DNA of 29,447 bases, taken from positions 1-29,447 of IMG/VR virus record IMGVR_UViG_3300025886_000108. One strand, given 5' to 3'. This document shows positions 5,028-19,107 of this stretch, one piece after another. Positions within the stretch are counted from its first letter, which is position 1, and every line of letters begins with the position of its first letter. The stretch comes from a virus. The notes under the pieces are model-generated. The model was not told the origin of the DNA and did no database searches. It saw only the letters and a program-made list of their open reading frames with translations. Position numbers and translations under genes: made by a program.

Positions 5028-5330
5028 TTATATATTTATTATTTTTACTTGTCCATTTATTACAGTATATATTGCTAGTTGTCTAGTCTCAATACCATAT
5101 TTTTTTGCTATCTTAATGAATAGATTTTTAAACTTTTTATCTATTGCTACTTGATAAATATTTAAACTGTCATTGTATAGTTTACCTTTATCAAGCCATT
5201 TACCTCTACCACTTGAAGTTGTACACCCTCCAAACTTTGAGCATAATTCAACCTCTAGTTGTTTGTGTGCTTTCTTAACTGACTTACCATCATTGTCATA
5301 TAATGGTAGATTTATTTGTGCTTGTATCAT
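5028..5330 (-). CDS. Hypothetical protein with a FGG-T-GRGKW motif, 100 aa
   Basis: ATG at 5330 with the leader GGAGGTTGA just upstream, overlapping the end of the preceding gene. Visible features are a KQLEVELCSKFGGCTTSSGR segment at about residues 24-43 running into GKW, then a Y..D..N-IYQVAID strand (52-64) and a basic helix. The FGG-x-T-x3-G-x-G-x-W pattern followed by a tyrosine and an aliphatic strand occurs, as I recall, in small uncharacterised phage and bacterial proteins; no function is known to me. C30 and C36 might bind a metal or pair, but two cysteines alone are weak evidence. Confidence 0.75.
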   Translation of the reverse strand: MIQAQINLPLYDNDGKSVKKAHKQLEVELCSKFGGCTTSSGRGKWLDKGKLYNDSLNIYQVAIDKKFKNLFIKIAKKYGIETRQLAIYTVINGQVKIINI

Positions 5331-6148: not shown

Positions 6149-6397
6149 TTATTCAGTATCTAACCATTTATTTAATTCTTTAAAATCAACTTCCATAGCT
6201 TTTATAAAAGTATCTTCATCAAATCTAGGGTTATCTGCTTTTAAAAATTCAATTAGTTTCCATTGCATTTCTACAATTTCACAACCTCTACTTGAATTTT
6301 CAATTTTACCAGTTTCCAAACCATTATTTTTATAACTTTCTTCATATCCATGTTTAAATATTTCTGCTAGTTTTTTATAGTATTTTCTGCTTAACAT
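6149..6397 (-). CDS. Hypothetical protein, 82 aa
   Basis: ATG at 6397 preceded by an exact leader ACAACTGGAGGTTGA. The protein starts MLSRKYYKKLAEIFKHGYEE, has a GRGCEI-like turn (SSRGCEIVEMQWKLIEFLKA) and an acidic end (DEDTFIKAMEVDFKELNKWL). The pattern of repeated helices with FI.A.E.D.K.LN is suggestive of a small all-helical protein. Family unknown. The opposite-strand frame at 6108-6335 is a shadow. Confidence 0.75.
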   Translation of the reverse strand: MLSRKYYKKLAEIFKHGYEESYKNNGLETGKIENSSRGCEIVEMQWKLIEFLKADNPRFDEDTFIKAMEVDFKELNKWLDTE

Positions 6398-6423
6398 TCA
6401 ACCTCCAGTTGTATTAGTATTAT

Positions 6424-6555
6424 TTATCTTGTAAAATTATAAGCTACATTTACAGCAAAAATTAAAAATAAACTTAAGCTTAAATATATCTCATTATTAA
6501 TTATTGAAAAAACACTTCCAAAAATTAAACTTAACCATAAAATTATATGGTACAT
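6424..6555 (-). CDS. Small two-span membrane protein, 43 aa
   Basis: ATG at 6555 with the leader ACAACTGGAGGTAGA, stop TAA at 6424-6426. The product starts MYHIILWLSLIFGSVFSIIN, has a short polar turn (NNEIY) and continues LSLSLFLIFAVNVAYNFTR. That gives two hydrophobic segments with a hairpin topology and a basic C-terminal residue. The size and topology would suit a small holin, but it sits in the first genes of the minus arm rather than beside a lysin, so a host-membrane role in early infection is as likely. The strong ribosome-binding site makes it a confident gene. Confidence 0.75.
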   Translation of the reverse strand: MYHIILWLSLIFGSVFSIINNEIYLSLSLFLIFAVNVAYNFTR

Positions 6556-6570
6556 TCTACCTCCAGTTGT

Positions 6571-6590
6571 AAGATTTAATTAAAAATCTT
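6571..6590. other. Short A/T hairpin in the first intergenic gap of the minus arm
   Basis: AAGATTT (6571-6577) and AAATCTT (6584-6590) form a 7-bp stem around a 6-base loop, immediately upstream of the ribosome-binding leader of the small membrane gene 6424-6555. No T run follows on the minus strand, so it is not a classical terminator. It could affect initiation or mRNA processing. Confidence 0.3.
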
Positions 6591-6609
6591 GTGTTGTTTA
6601 CTTACTTAA

Positions 6610-6840
6610 TTACAAGCTGTGGTTGTATCTAGCATTTTTAGATTTACCACCTTGAACACTCATATTAATTCGGTTGTAAATGCTTGATTTAACTGGCTTG
6701 TAATATTCTTGAAATATTAAAGAATTACAATTTAAATCTTTTATTGCTCTTCTTTTATATTTTAAAAATTCTCTTCTATTTTGAATTCCGAAAGCTTTGT
6801 AATTATGCTTTGTTATTTCAAATGTTATTGTTTTTTTCAT
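6610..6840 (-). CDS. Hypothetical basic protein, first gene of the minus arm, 76 aa
   Basis: ATG at 6840; no clear Shine-Dalgarno precedes it, only A/T-rich sequence with a TATAAC 4 bases before the ATG. The protein starts MKKTITFEITKHNYKAFGIQ and is very basic (NRREFLKYKRRAIKDL; KPVKSSIYNRINMSVQGGKS, ending KNARYNHSL). A DNA- or RNA-binding regulator made early in infection would fit its position and charge, but no helix-turn-helix or other fold can be named. Confidence 0.65.
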   Translation of the reverse strand: MKKTITFEITKHNYKAFGIQNRREFLKYKRRAIKDLNCNSLIFQEYYKPVKSSIYNRINMSVQGGKSKNARYNHSL

Positions 6841-7073
6841 GATGTTATAAAAACATAGTCATAAGGCTATTGTTTGACTGAAATATGGCAAAAATAAGTT
6901 AATATGAAAAAATAAGTGAGCAATAGCAACGATTATTGAAATAAATTAAAAATAATTGAAAATAATTAAAATAATATTGCTAATAATTGATTTGATTTGA
7001 AATTTTTATAAAAGTTTTTAGAAATAAATAATGCTTATATAATTTGTATAAATAGCTAAAAACTGATTAATAA

Positions 7074-7093
7074 AACTAAGGCATAACTAAGGC
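7074..7093 (+). repeat. Tandem 9-bp repeat AACTAAGGC with 11-bp period
   Basis: AACTAAGGC at 7074-7082 and 7085-7093, spaced one helical turn apart, so that a protein would meet both copies on the same face of the DNA. It lies at the border between the A/T-rich stretch and the more mixed part of the divergent region. Confidence 0.6.
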
Positions 7094-7110
7094 TATTTGT
7101 AGGTAATTAA

Positions 7111-7501
7111 AGGGCGACCAGCTATATATTTTCTGTTGTATTATTGCAACATCTGGTGACAATTATATCACTATAGAATATGCAATTAAGGGTTGAATTA
7201 TCTGGTGCAATCGCTGGTTGTGTGAGGGTTTAAATCATATCTTATATGTGGTAAATATATCACTATGTGTTGTAAACTAGCAACACCTTAAGATACACCT
7301 ATAGATTGTAAAAGATATGTCAGTATTGCTTACCTATATTTGTAGTTTAGATTGATTCTAATTCGCAAGGGGTAGCCGATGTGCCATGGGGGGGTGTGGG
7401 GGTATGTATATAGTGCTTATACAAAATGAAAGACTTTTGAGTGTAAACTAGATAAGGTCGCCCTGCTATAAAGATTAGCTAGGGGGTTGCTATATAGCTG
7501 G
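7111..7501. repeat. Pair of long-range inverted repeats
   Basis: AGGGCGACC (7111-7119) is the reverse complement of GGTCGCCCT (7447-7455), and the directly adjoining CCAGCTATATA (7118-7128) is the reverse complement of TATATAGCTGG (7491-7501). The left side thus has one continuous 18-base block whose two halves have separate partners over 300 bases away. The G/C-rich octamer is unusual in this genome. Candidate roles are a structured RNA, a recombination or packaging site, or paired operators. Confidence 0.55.
7369..7402 (+). other. Cluster of G tracts
   Basis: GGGG (7369-7372), GGGGGGG (7388-7394) and GGGGG (7398-7402) lie within 34 bases in an otherwise A/T-dominated genome. Another GGGGG follows at about 7482. 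Four tracts could form a G-quadruplex, though the loops are uneven. Confidence 0.45.
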
Positions 7502-7608
7502 ACTGACCCAGATAGACTTAGATGCTTCACCCCCTGGAGGGTAACTACTTATATTATACACCCTCTTCTGCATTTGTCAACTCTAATTAGAAATATATTT
7601 AATTTGTG

Positions 7609-7637
7609 TTGTCAACTAGCTGTAAACTTGTTATAAT
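7609..7637 (+). promoter_or_regulatory. Late-arm promoter at the terminase small subunit
   Basis: TTGTCA (7609-7614), a 17-base spacer and TATAAT (7632-7637): 11 of 12 consensus positions. The expected start point (about 7644) coincides with the ATG at 7645, so the message may be leaderless. A second TTGTCAACT sits 35 bases upstream (7574-7582) with only a poor -10, and may be an operator copy. Confidence 0.8.
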
Positions 7638-7644
7638 GATTAAT

Positions 7645-8085
7645 ATGAATAGTAACTTCCTACCTACCAATCAAGATAAGAAAAGAAAATTAACAGAACA
7701 ACAAGAAACATTCTTAGCATCGTTATCAACAACAGCCAAAGGAGATATAAACCTAGCATTACAAGAAGCAGGTTATTCTCCAACATCTAAATCTAAAGTA
7801 ATAGATTCCTTAAAGGATGAGATTGTAGATGTCGCCACAAAGATTCTAGCTAAGTCTGCACCACGAGCCAGTCAGAAACTTGTAGAGATATTGGAGAGTG
7901 ATGACCCCATACCACAAGTGAATGCTAAACTCCAAGCAGCCCAAACCTTGTTAGACAGAGTGGGTGTTGCTAAAAGAGATAAGGTGGATGTTAGTCATAC
8001 AGTATCATCAGGTATATTTATTATACCACAAAAAGAAGAATTAATAGATGTAACAGCAGAAGAGGTAATCGATGAGAAGGAATAG
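7645..8085 (+). CDS. terS: Terminase small subunit
   Basis: The small terminase subunit recognises phage DNA and recruits the large subunit for packaging. I choose ATG 7645 (146 aa, start MNSNFLPTNQDKKRKLTEQQ), because the longer frame from a GTG at 7606 would run through the promoter. Residues about 15-45 (LTEQQETFLASL...ALQEAGYS) match the N-terminal helix-turn-helix of small terminases. The part near residues 95-115 (AKLQAAQTLLDRVGVAKRDK) resembles the family's C-terminal helix, followed by an acidic tail. The position just before the large subunit supports the call. No ribosome-binding site is seen, consistent with leaderless translation. It overlaps the next gene by 14 bases. Confidence 0.8.
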   Translation: MNSNFLPTNQDKKRKLTEQQETFLASLSTTAKGDINLALQEAGYSPTSKSKVIDSLKDEIVDVATKILAKSAPRASQKLVEILESDDPIPQVNAKLQAAQTLLDRVGVAKRDKVDVSHTVSSGIFIIPQKEELIDVTAEEVIDEKE

Positions 8086-8353
8086 TTCGACAATCCCTTT
8101 TGGTTATAAGTTAGCAAGTGATGATAAGACTTTAGTTCCAGTAGCTAAAGAAATAGAATCATTAAATGAAATGAAAGATGGTGTTAAGTCAGGTGCTTTT
8201 AGTTTAAGAGGAGCAGTAGATATATTAGAACATCAAACAGGTCGTAAGCTATCAGCCATGGGGTTAAAGAAGATAATGGATAAAGATACTCCAGAACCAA
8301 TTAAAGAACAACCAAAAGGTTTACTAGCTAGAGATGACAAAGAGACAATATAA
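8072..8353 (+). CDS. Small protein resembling the DNA-binding part of serine recombinases
   Basis: A 93-aa protein between the two terminase genes; ATG 8072 with AGAGG upstream. Residues about 8-70 (IPFGYKLASDDKTLVPVAKE, then SLRGAVDILEHQTGRKLSAM-GLKKIM) follow the pattern of the recombinase domain of large serine recombinases: PFGY, a D..TLVP loop, a helix with G.SLR, then TG-x-S-x-x-G-L/V-x-x-I. The catalytic resolvase domain is absent, so no strand exchange is expected. It may be a domesticated DNA-binding module helping site recognition in packaging, which is inference. The end overlaps the large subunit start by 20 bases. Confidence 0.7.
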   Translation: MRRNSSTIPFGYKLASDDKTLVPVAKEIESLNEMKDGVKSGAFSLRGAVDILEHQTGRKLSAMGLKKIMDKDTPEPIKEQPKGLLARDDKETI

Positions 8354-9920
8354 TTATAGCTTTGAACATAAAGCTAAGTTAGCTTCTAGAAAGTTAGTTA
8401 AAGAAAAAGAAAAAGAAATAGCAAAATTAAAAAAGAACTTGGAGAATAAGACCAGAAGACTCCGAGATAAAAAGGAAGCACTAAAGGTAGTACAGAATGG
8501 CGAGACGAATAAAGAAACGAAGAAAGGTATGGTCATCGAAGAAGACAAGCTTGATAACCTTCCTAACCCTGTTAAAGAACTCCTTCAAGAAGAAAAAGAA
8601 CGAATAGCATTTAAACCTAATACAGGTCCACAAACACAATTTTTAGCAGCACCAGAACAAGATGTATTGTATGGTGGTGCAGCAGGTGGAGGTAAGTCAT
8701 ACGCAATGTTAGTTGACCCATTAAGGTTTATGCACATCAAAGAACATAGAGCATTACTATTAAGAAAGTCAATGCCTGAACTTAGAGAATTAATAGACAA
8801 GTCTAGAGAGTTGTACCCTAAAGCATTTCAAGGTGCAAAGTTTAGAGAGGTTGAAAAGATTTGGAAATTTCCTTCAGGAGCTTCATTGGAGTTTGGTTAC
8901 CTTGATAGAGATGCTGATGTATATAGATACCAAGGTCAATCGTACACCTGGATAGGGATTGACGAGCTAACACAGTATCCTACAGAATTCCCACTTCAAT
9001 ACTTGCAATCACGATTGAGAACAACTAATAATGCAATACAATGCTACATTCGGTGTACTGCAAACCCAGGAGGAGTGGGAGGTAACTGGGTCAAAAAAAG
9101 GTATCTAGACCCAGCACCACCTAATGAATCCTTTACTGGTAAAGATAAGATAACAAGAAAGTTTATTCCTGCTAGTCTACAAGACAATCCTTATCTAAAT
9201 GATGATGGTAAATATGAACAGATGCTTCAATCATTACCACCAACACAAAGAAGACAACTACTAGATGGTAACTGGGATGTTTCCGAAGGAGCTGCTTTTA
9301 CAGAATTTGAATATGATAAACATACAATAGCTCCATATGAATTACCTAAACATTGGACTAGAGTAAAAGGAATTGACTATGGTTATGCAGCAGAGTCAGC
9401 AGTTGTATGGGGAGCAATAGACCCACAAGATGAAACATTAATTATTTATAGAGAACTATATCAAAAAGGATTAACAGGAGAAGAGTTAGCTTTAAGAATA
9501 TTTGAGTTTGAAAGAGAAGATAAACTATCTGTTCCTGGGGTGTTAGATACAGCAGCATGGGCAAGAACAGGAACTACTGGTCCAACTGTCGGAGAAACAT
9601 TAACAAGGGCAGGACATAAGCTTAGAAGAGCAGATAAGAATAGAATTCAGGGCAAGATACAAATACATGAAAGATTAAAATTAAACTCCCAAGGGAGACC
9701 AAAGCTTCAGCTATTTCGTACTTGTCCGAATATAATAAGAGAATTACAATCAATACCTATTGATAAAACAAAACCAGAAGATGTCGATACTAAAGCATCA
9801 GACCATGCTTATGATGCACTTAGATATTTAATTATGTCTAGACCTAGAAGTATTACAGCTTATGAAAATATGCAACAACATAAAAGATGGATACCATCTG
9901 ACCCAACCTTCGGATACTAA
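8334..9920 (+). CDS. terL: Terminase large subunit (ATPase and nuclease)
   Basis: A 528-aa packaging motor that pumps DNA into the procapsid and cuts the concatemer. Walker A is YGGAAGGGKS (113-122), Walker B is WIGIDE (206-211, with D210 and catalytic E211), and a CTANPGGVGG coupling segment lies at 241-250. The nuclease half has D348 in GIDYGYA, D405 in VLDTAAW and D490/D494 in ASDHAYDALRYL. All expected catalytic positions are present. The first 66 residues are an unusual lysine-rich coiled coil (KEKEKEIAKLKKNLENKTRR); M67 at 8532 is an alternative start. The ATG at 8334 lacks a clear Shine-Dalgarno and lies inside the preceding gene, so translation is probably coupled. Confidence 0.95.
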   Translation: MTKRQYNYSFEHKAKLASRKLVKEKEKEIAKLKKNLENKTRRLRDKKEALKVVQNGETNKETKKGMVIEEDKLDNLPNPVKELLQEEKERIAFKPNTGPQTQFLAAPEQDVLYGGAAGGGKSYAMLVDPLRFMHIKEHRALLLRKSMPELRELIDKSRELYPKAFQGAKFREVEKIWKFPSGASLEFGYLDRDADVYRYQGQSYTWIGIDELTQYPTEFPLQYLQSRLRTTNNAIQCYIRCTANPGGVGGNWVKKRYLDPAPPNESFTGKDKITRKFIPASLQDNPYLNDDGKYEQMLQSLPPTQRRQLLDGNWDVSEGAAFTEFEYDKHTIAPYELPKHWTRVKGIDYGYAAESAVVWGAIDPQDETLIIYRELYQKGLTGEELALRIFEFEREDKLSVPGVLDTAAWARTGTTGPTVGETLTRAGHKLRRADKNRIQGKIQIHERLKLNSQGRPKLQLFRTCPNIIRELQSIPIDKTKPEDVDTKASDHAYDALRYLIMSRPRSITAYENMQQHKRWIPSDPTFGY

Positions 9921-10215: not shown

Positions 10216-10529
10216 CAAAGAAAAAGATACAATTAAATACTAGAGCTACTAGAGAAATAGATAAGTACCCTATGGTTGCTGTATACTGGCTTGATATTTG
10301 CTCGGATAGCTCCTGGCAATCGATGGAGGGATGTAAGAAAGCAAAGCTACCAACTTGTGTAACTCATGGTCATTTACTTACACAAGCTAAAGGAGTTACT
10401 AGAGTATTTGGAGATTATTCACTATCAGATTCTGAGGATGGTAAGATTGAAGAGATAGGAAATACTACAATTATACCCAATAGTGTTATCATAGAAATTA
10501 AGAAAATAGTTGACAAGTCGAAGAAATAA
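10212..10529 (+). CDS. Conserved-looking marine phage hypothetical protein, 105 aa
   Basis: ATG 10212 in an ATGA overlap, with GGGGA upstream. The protein holds a YPMVAVYWLDICSDSSWQSM segment, cysteines at about positions 30, 41 and 49, a HGHLLTQAKGVTRVFGDYSL block and a GNTTIIPNSVIIEIKKI end. The alternating hydrophobic pattern suggests a small beta protein. I recall similar proteins near terminase and portal genes in marine phages without known function. The last codons contain the -35 box of the portal promoter. Confidence 0.75.
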   Translation: MTKKKIQLNTRATREIDKYPMVAVYWLDICSDSSWQSMEGCKKAKLPTCVTHGHLLTQAKGVTRVFGDYSLSDSEDGKIEEIGNTTIIPNSVIIEIKKIVDKSKK

Positions 10530-17295: not shown

Positions 17296-19107
17296 ATGCC
17301 AACACAAGGAGCTTCAATTACTGTTGCAGGAGGTTTGGATTTAGTATCAAGCTCTCATGCTTTGTTTCGAACTCCAGGTGCTGCAACTATATTAGAAAAT
17401 TTTGAATCATCTACAACAGGTGGTTATAGAAGAATTAATGGTTATACTAAATGGGGTGGTGCTAGTGCAGCAGTACCTTCAGGTTCTCAACTAGATGCAA
17501 TAACAGGATTGATACCTTATGCAGGTGGAGTTGTTGCTTGTCAAGGTACAGGAATATTTTGGTCAGATGATGGTATTACTTGGCTTCAAATTAATAAAGA
17601 TACTTATGTAACTAAAACAGGAACAGTAGCAGTTAATGCAGGTTCAGCAACAGTTACAGGAACTGGTACAGCATTTACAACTGAGTTTGCTGTTAATGAT
17701 AGAATACAAATTAACTCTATTAATTATAGAGTATTATCAATTACAAGTAATACAGTATTAACATTAGATAGTAATGTACAAACAACAGCTTCAAGTCAAG
17801 CTGTAAAAAAAAGTGGTATACTTGCTGCAGCTTTATCTGGTGCAACAACTATAGCTAGAAGTAATCAATCAAATAATCAATTTGCTACATTTGAATCAGA
17901 TGGTGCTTATGGTAGTTTATATATTACTGATGGTACTAATAAAATAGCAGAGTTTCAAATAACAGTATCAAGTGGAGTTAACACTTATTACTTTGAAGAA
18001 CTGGCTTCTCCAGCTCCTTCCAATCCTAAGATATGTGAAATATTTTCTGAAAGATTAGTCGTAGCAGGACAAACATCTTCAACAAGTACAGTAGTTTATA
18101 GTTCTAGATTAAAGCCATATGACTTTGAAGGTTCCTCTGCAGGTGAGATAGATGTTGGAGATATCATTGTAGGTATAAAAGTATTTAGAAATAGCTTAAT
18201 TATATTTTGTAAAAATAGTATCTTTGAGTTGACAAGTCTTGATTCTACCCCTATAATTAAGTCTATAACCAAAAATATAGGTTGTGTAAATGGAAATTCA
18301 ATTCAGGAGATAGGTGGAGATTTAATCTTCTTAGCACCTGATGGATTAAGAACAGTTGCTGGTACAGCGAGAATTGATGATGTTGAAATAGGTTCTATTA
18401 GTAGAAAAATTTTACCTTTAATAAACAATCTATTAAAAAATATTCAACAATATACTATCTCTAGTATGGTTATTAGAGAAAGAAGTCAATACAGATTATT
18501 TTATCATAAGTCTGGTCAAGCTCAATCAGGACAATTAGGAATTATAGGAACTTTTAAATTTGATTCAAATGGAGTTCCTGCTTTTGAGTGGAGTGAAACA
18601 AAAGGAATGGAATTAAAATTTTGTTCTTCAGAATTAAATCCTCAAAACGAAGAAGTTAAATTTGGTGCAAATGATACTGGTTATATTTATGAAATAGATA
18701 CTGGTAATAATTTTGATGCAGCAAATATAAGTGCAAGATTTCAAACACCAGATATGGATTATGGTGATAATGGTTTAAGAAAAAGTTTATATAAAGTTAA
18801 AACTAATATTGAACCTGAAGGTACACAAAACAATTTAAAGTTAAGAATTAGATATGACTTTGATAATTCTGAAGTTCCTCAACCAGGAGAATTTTCAGTT
18901 GGTAATTTAAGTAGTGCTTCTCTCTTTGGACAAGCTACTGCTTTATTTGGCTCTGCTTTTTTTGGAGCAACAACACTACCGAGTAAAAGTGTTTTAGTAA
19001 CAGGAAGTGGATTTTCAAATAGTTTTAGATTTTTTACTAATGACACAGATGCAGCATATTCAGTTAATGGAATGTTTGTATCTTTTATAGCAGGAGGAAG
19101 AAGATAA
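17296..19107 (+). CDS. Tail hub / tail tubular protein B-like
   Basis: A 603-aa beta-rich protein; ATG 17296 with AGGA upstream. It starts MPTQGASITVAGGLDLVSSS, then RTPGAATILENFESSTTGGY and RRINGYTKW. This opening is typical of podovirus nozzle or DNA-stabilisation proteins (T7 gp12 / P22 gp10 class). A GTVAVNAGSATVTGTGTAFT module at about residues 112-131 is a small beta domain seen in phage structural proteins. Repeated strands through the middle fit a propeller. C-terminal Phe-rich segments (SLFGQATALFGSAFF) are unusual. A perfect promoter sequence lies within the gene (18229-18257). Confidence 0.75.
   Translation: MPTQGASITVAGGLDLVSSSHALFRTPGAATILENFESSTTGGYRRINGYTKWGGASAAVPSGSQLDAITGLIPYAGGVVACQGTGIFWSDDGITWLQINKDTYVTKTGTVAVNAGSATVTGTGTAFTTEFAVNDRIQINSINYRVLSITSNTVLTLDSNVQTTASSQAVKKSGILAAALSGATTIARSNQSNNQFATFESDGAYGSLYITDGTNKIAEFQITVSSGVNTYYFEELASPAPSNPKICEIFSERLVVAGQTSSTSTVVYSSRLKPYDFEGSSAGEIDVGDIIVGIKVFRNSLIIFCKNSIFELTSLDSTPIIKSITKNIGCVNGNSIQEIGGDLIFLAPDGLRTVAGTARIDDVEIGSISRKILPLINNLLKNIQQYTISSMVIRERSQYRLFYHKSGQAQSGQLGIIGTFKFDSNGVPAFEWSETKGMELKFCSSELNPQNEEVKFGANDTGYIYEIDTGNNFDAANISARFQTPDMDYGDNGLRKSLYKVKTNIEPEGTQNNLKLRIRYDFDNSEVPQPGEFSVGNLSSASLFGQATALFGSAFFGATTLPSKSVLVTGSGFSNSFRFFTNDTDAAYSVNGMFVSFIAGGRR
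18229..18257 (+). promoter_or_regulatory. Perfect sigma70 promoter match inside the tail hub gene
   Basis: TTGACA (18229-18234), a 17-base spacer and TATAAT (18252-18257) match 12 of 12 consensus positions, in codons for ELTSLDSTPI. It could supply extra transcript for the fibre genes starting at 19109. A chance match in A/T-rich coding DNA is also possible. Confidence 0.5.

Follow-up and report, generated by a model that had tools for sequence, protein, structure and literature searches.

A probable terminase junction with a short direct terminal repeat in the divergent promoter region of an HTVC103P-type pelagiphage relative

In phage lambda, which has cos ends, the late operon and its promoter are separated in virion DNA, each sitting at one end, and circularisation brings the two together. 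For Pseudomonas phage tf and LUZ24-like phages, short direct terminal repeats are described, 186 bp long in tf; their linear genomes carry two convergent gene arms and host sigma70 promoters, according to the accessible part of PMC3517423. In Sinorhizobium phage phiM6, a member of the HMO-2011 group, PhageTerm places the start at position 1 (PMC6256558), and a G-rich/TATA element ends about 91 bp further on. Phages of the HMO-2011 type are described as dominant and broadly distributed in the ocean (PMC9038755, in the text available), and HTVC103P-type pelagiphages share packaging genes with them (PMC8528129, likewise). In the searchable literature we found no mapped genome ends for HMO-2011-type or HTVC103P-type phages, the nearest case being phiM6; neither "termini" nor "circular" occurs in the text of PMC9038755 or PMC6918029, and the available portions of the HTVC103P/HTVC104P papers (PMC8528129, PMC10504331) hold no description of the gene-free region considered here.

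The DNA analysed, hereafter the window, is a viral record from IMG/VR, 29,447 bases long, of a virus of abundant ocean bacteria related to the HTVC103P-type pelagiphages. Its non-coding control and packaging region (6841..7644, no strand assigned) lies between leftward small genes, the first of which encodes 76 aa without any Pfam or PHROGs match (6610..6840, minus strand), and the rightward gene of the terminase small subunit (TerS, 146 aa, 7645..8085, plus strand, ATG at 7645; phrog_2538, E 5e-5), with the large subunit further on (TerL, 528 aa, 8334..9920, plus strand). The original prediction described about 800 bases without a gene, and indeed the longest stop-free stretches inside are 43 codons on the minus strand and 54 on the plus strand, while a search for tRNA and tmRNA genes returned none. 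The 804-bp gap is conserved among HTVC103P-type pelagiphages: HTVC103P and HTVC104P match 6880-7637 at about 71% identity, with 94% of the 804-base query covered. In HTVC104P the small genes diverge from the packaging and structural genes at the corresponding point, and the orthologous regions of HTVC103P, HTVC104P and HTVC115P all contain, like that of the window, the pair of promoters and the triplet of sites discussed below; the HTVC104P and HTVC115P records begin at the first gene, so their physical ends are not given. A 42-aa CDS, gp89, is annotated inside the non-coding region of HTVC104P (L002:581-709). As a small protein it was rejected, its frame being shifted and stopped in the window and interrupted by a stop in 58 of 152 tblastn pieces from relatives, and it is probably an over-annotation.

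The region is mosaic between strains. A cassette of ~20 bp (TTATAATGATTCTAATTAGCAA, window ~7345-7372 and homologous places) has opposite orientation in different strains (L007 versus L016 and L009), and in L040, L047, L052 and L054 a G-tract is found on the other strand; these differences look like hairpin-centred inversions.

Two promoters stand back to back in front of TerS. The leftward one, PL (7553..7580, minus strand), is a sigma70-type TTGACA-16-TATAAT matching the consensus at 12/12 positions, with a start predicted at ~7546; it was present at 79 of 81 sites by script and was read by eye in the remaining two (L047 and L050, misparsed). The rightward one, PR (7609..7637, plus strand; TTGTCA-17-TATAAT), ends 7 bp before the TerS ATG, and its transcript would be a leaderless mRNA for TerS. 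In 94 regions matching a pattern that required the hexamers and allowed spacers of 15-19, the spacer of PR is 17 in all and the distance to the ATG 6-8; it should be noted that the regions were gathered by this TerS-promoter pattern and non-matching ones went uncounted, so that PR and site 1 are present by selection. The -35/-10 pairs conserved on both strands point to a divergent promoter region for host sigma70. Promoter-like sites of 11/12 or 12/12 also stand before late genes at 10510, 12786 and 20774, with corresponding sites in HTVC104P, and late genes, too, are probably transcribed by the host polymerase. A further near-consensus sigma70 promoter is found at 18229; most of these promoters, which lie within or ahead of late genes, have HTVC104P counterparts, and the one at 10510 also bears TAGTTGACA.

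The decamer TGTMAACTAG occurs in three same-strand copies in the region and exactly nowhere else in the window, while with one mismatch there are 8 matches in the window, no more than chance (mean 7.2). Site 3 (TGTAAACTAG, 7271..7280, plus strand) was found within one mismatch in 56 of 66 regions (44 exact) and is missing in the other 10. Site 2, with the same sequence (7442..7451, plus strand), was found within one mismatch in 89/89 regions, 85 of them exact, and it follows site 3 at a spacing of 163-172 bp in the 55 regions where this distance was taken. Site 1 (TGTCAACTAG, 7610..7619, plus strand) overlaps the PR -35 and belongs to the pattern used for gathering the regions; a partial copy, TGTAAACTTG, lies inside the PR spacer (7621..7630, plus strand). 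HTVC115P carries TGTTAACTAG at all three places instead, and such a joint change is what would be expected for the sites of one protein.

The proposed left physical end of the genome, L, is position 7239 (plus strand, 5'-ATCTTATATG...), with a conserved block, GGTTGTGTGAGGGTTT, just outside it (7216..7231, plus strand). Seven contigs begin exactly at the homologous base (L027, L034, L066, L075, L078, L136 and L292). Each is from a different metagenome, and their first 120 bases show 46-81% identity, with L078/L136 as the closest pair; the same start base in contigs of different sequence is the signature of a physical genome end. A true end on the early side of TerS is present in 100 contigs; 21 of them stop at most 200 bp before a recognised site 3, and seven of these ends fall 32-33 bp before it, all beginning ATCTT (binomial P 1e-9 against a uniform spread, for a position chosen after the fact). 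The count omits L023, L065, L123, L131, L135 and L139, whose early-side end is unreached or unlisted, and also L285; L139 ends 765 bp upstream of TerS and the five named before it run far past the region. Of the contigs of at least 8 kb, 37 out of 45 end within 1 kb upstream of TerS, mostly not on one base, and their opposite ends are scattered over 0.6 to 42 kb. As the G-tract and mosaic stretches interrupt contigs as well, clustering of ends alone was not taken as a terminus, and only ends on the same base were so considered. By these contig ends a fixed left end at L is well supported. Positions 1-45 of another public contig, L061, are a contaminant adapter-like sequence, which we take to resemble the Nextera adapter.

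The proposed second physical end, X (7423..7425, plus strand; ...GCTTATACA/AA/), coincides with the end of an element made of a G-tract and a TATA-like sequence (GCCATGGGGGGGTGTGGGGGTATGTATATAGTGCTTATACAAA, 7383..7425, plus strand). Two scaffolds, G001 and G002, have early-side pieces that stop there, at N10 gaps (...TTATACA and ...CATACAAA). Both scaffolds come from one metagenome, and they are the only two among 46 stretches with the TATA-element pattern that end at this place; contigs with early genes only may be under-represented in a viral collection. In L281 and L282, which belong to G002 and G001, the region is repeated from different strains, joined by the N10 gaps. Further evidence is provided by the Rhizobium phages RHph_N3_19, N3_13 and I3_11, whose record boundaries lie at a similar element in 3/3 cases, two of the three being nearly identical at the element. 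From hosts and country we infer that these records belong to the study of Rhizobium phages from Argentina and Mexico, PMC8245606, whose available text names SPAdes, Velvet and Phrap and does not mention PhageTerm. At the record boundary of Aeromonas phage MQM1, which has a related TerL, there is no such element. Early-side contigs, sought through the primase among the best 80 of 182 loci, gave no early-side end; the only one to match the region at length, L211, runs on through it. The examined part of a 54-kb record, G007, holds no exact terminal repeat of at least 15 bp and no recognisable region. A scan of genome contigs gave two matches, both in MAGs of unrelated bacteria, and the pattern GATTGTKTGAGGGTTT was rejected as it returned mostly unrelated contigs.

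A G-tract, a TATA-like sequence and mostly a GTTAAC/GTAAAC site can also be recognised in other phages, namely HTVC115P (with the G-tract on the other strand), HTVC033P, HMO-2011, CRP-1 and CRP-9, and the element without the decamer in phiM6 and the three RHph phages, so that roseophages, the SAR116 phage HMO-2011 and rhizobial phages are among the carriers; this likeness was read by eye and not from a statistical alignment. BLAST supports its phiM6/RHph part and, for the HMO-2011 region, gives matches to CRP-1 (query coverage 28%) and CRP-345 (21%), while with the HTVC115P and HTVC033P regions it found no other phage of this group. In HMO-2011, CRP-1 and CRP-9 the element is not adjacent to the terminase genes or TerS. 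Part of the relatives share a further block, F' (7013..7064, plus strand), an inverted repeat AGTTTTTAG...CTAAAAACT with a second TGCTTATA; it lies ~540-600 bp from the PL start, and its second TGCTTATA resembles one at X.

From contig ends, scaffold pieces and record boundaries we infer that the region is a terminase junction set in a divergent promoter region, with a direct terminal repeat of about 185 bp, and give this reading a probability of roughly 0.6. The proposed repeat, which is likely a true one, would span 7239..7425 (plus strand, 185-187 bp). In the 34 regions with both marks, L and X are 178-187 bp apart, and each lies before a same-strand decamer, L 32-33 bp before site 3 and X about 15-18 bp before site 2. 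The terminase would cut concatemeric DNA about 32 bp before site 3, at L, and a second time about 15-18 bp before site 2, at X, perhaps guided by TerS bound to the TGTMAACTAG sites, and the two cuts would leave the ~185 bp direct terminal repeat. PR would drive TerS and the packaging genes, while PL, facing the left virion end, would reach the leftward early genes only once the two ends are joined. Against this reading, ATCTT is lacking at L in 18 of 55 regions and site 3 in 10 of 66, and many contigs break elsewhere in the region, some of them at the G-tract, and assembly difficulty does contribute to these breaks. The packaging site suggested by the original prediction finds support in contig ends on one base, in a cross-phage element at the second end and in the similarly placed start of phiM6; the two promoters, the triplet of decamers, the G-tract/TATA element and the terminus itself had been overlooked.

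The repeat would be similar in length to that of tf, and as in tf and the LUZ24-like phages there are two convergent arms on a linear genome and host sigma70 promoters. In the window, however, the ends are deduced from contigs and a strong promoter faces outward, and the likeness concerns gene arms, promoters and repeat length. The comparison with phiM6 involves a related TerL (43%): its start lies 600 bp before the first gene (TerS by position only) and is followed by the G-rich/TATA element, as here, but only about 91 bp separate its start from the end of the element, against about 185 bp here, and it was called pac (headful) by PhageTerm, not short repeat (PMC6256558).

This call raises the alternative that L is the initiating cleavage of headful packaging, followed by imprecise cuts, which would give terminally redundant and circularly permuted genomes with no fixed repeat. 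HMO-2011 was deposited as circular, and 8 of the 45 long contigs extend beyond TerS into the early side by over 1 kb, both of which agree with it. However, an end present in a minority of molecules would rarely be expected to interrupt an assembly, and seven contigs have their first base exactly at L; a second fixed place recurs in two scaffolds and three Rhizobium phage records. We consider headful packaging unlikely, although it deserves serious attention.

It could also be argued that there is no physical end at all and that G-tract, AT richness and strain mosaicism simply break contigs in a plain divergent regulatory region. The left ends are spread over about 1 kb, several contigs (L043, L059, L060 and L288) start at the G-tract, and the mosaic structure points the same way; moreover the first bases of L067 are ATCTTTT although it starts 568 bp before site 3, and such a start can therefore arise by chance. 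It is however difficult to explain in this manner why 7 of 21 ends share a single homologous base and a pentamer in otherwise diverged sequence, and why three rhizobial phages are cut at a similar element, which makes an artefact of assembly quite unlikely.

A staggered cut at L leaving a cohesive end of ~5 nt, ATCTT, is in our opinion improbable. The genome would then circularise on entry and PL would read the early genes, which would explain its outward orientation, and while the late-side contigs begin ATCTT, one early-side piece ends 5 bp past L (...ACTTATCTT), a position that fits a cos cut better than the repeat. But this is the one early-side end of its kind, X, where two scaffolds and three records end, would be left unexplained, and ATCTT, present at L in 37/55 regions, is missing in the other 18.

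The original prediction had also considered a replication origin. The A/T stretch on which it drew is real, since AT content in 80-bp windows along the contig peaks for those starting around 6932 (91%; 6 windows tie), and so is the tandem repeat (6935-6975, 4.2 copies), although its period is 10 and not 11. As for the repeated motifs, ATATCACTAT occurs twice and only here, whereas ATCTGGTG, also twice here, has four more copies elsewhere in the window. In an origin the same-strand TGTMAACTAG sites would be iterons and 6930-7080, where the contig has its highest AT window, the melting zone, and the cumulative GC skew has its minimum near 7000. However, both GC and AT skew switch in the region at the point where gene direction also switches, so the skew says nothing on an origin here. 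In addition, the shared element occurs in phage groups that have the packaging module in common but are reported to differ in part of the replication module (PMC8528129, in the text available). We give the origin little credence.

Structured RNA was the remaining suggestion. The inverted repeats on which it relied are present (AGGGCGACC at 7111/7456 and CCAGCTATATA at 7118/7491), and the sequence allows a hairpin around 7268-7287. As a conserved structure the long-range inverted repeat was rejected: its 9-nt pair is intact in only 3 of 47 testable regions (the window, L008 and L127), besides a shorter contig, L146, and with 7 nt retained in L009. Covariation was no more favourable, since an alignment of 42 diverse leaders (first 186 nt from the PL start) shares 6 consensus pairs at -3.3 kcal/mol, with a double change in one pair, and no pairs were conserved. 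The folding energy is ordinary (z -1.45 on the plus and -1.64 on the minus strand; on each strand 7 of 100 shuffled sequences fold equally well), and Rfam gave 0 matches at gathering and nothing credible up to E 10, with four weak matches (E 0.66-9.3) within 6300-8400. What is conserved, as sequence, are the TATA element and blocks E (GGTCGCCCTGCT, 7456..7467), D (TATATAGCTGGACTGACCCAGA, 7491..7512) and C (TTCACCCCCTGGAG, 7526..7539, within the first bases of the PL transcript), all on the plus strand. Even though PL on joined DNA would yield an untranslated leader of about 700 nt, a structured leader or non-coding RNA transcribed from PL is, on this evidence, hardly credible.

If L and X are the ends, as the direct terminal repeat would have it, PL points off the left end, with a run-off of ~308 nt, while the operon it serves is at the right end. 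Within ~590 bp leftward of X, none of 37 regions has a leftward promoter of at least 11/12, and 8 have one of 10/12, whereas PL is present in 37/37; early transcription from PL would therefore need joined ends. Two 11/12 leftward sites are found further inside the early operon of the window, at 5055 and 4321. We suggest, very tentatively, that the packaging cut parts PL, the only strong early-operon promoter found, from its genes, that end-joining after infection switches early transcription on and the terminase, cutting during packaging, ends it again, and that TerS on the decamers represses both PR and PL and chooses the cut. The layout of the ends would resemble that of lambda, except that in lambda the late operon is split from its promoter and here it would be the early operon. 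HTVC115P differs from the window in having a terminator between PL and the proposed X, and transcription from PL into the early genes may therefore not be straightforward. This intrinsic terminator (L154:421-444, minus strand) consists of AACCCTGCC-TAAACC-GGTGGGGTT followed by T's, ~60-90 nt past the PL start; past PL in the window and in the HTVC104P region none was found.

The proposed early gene control is specific and testable in HTVC103P, HTVC104P or HTVC115P. More generally, a packaging element recognisable in raw contigs would let metagenomes reveal genome ends and packaging type.
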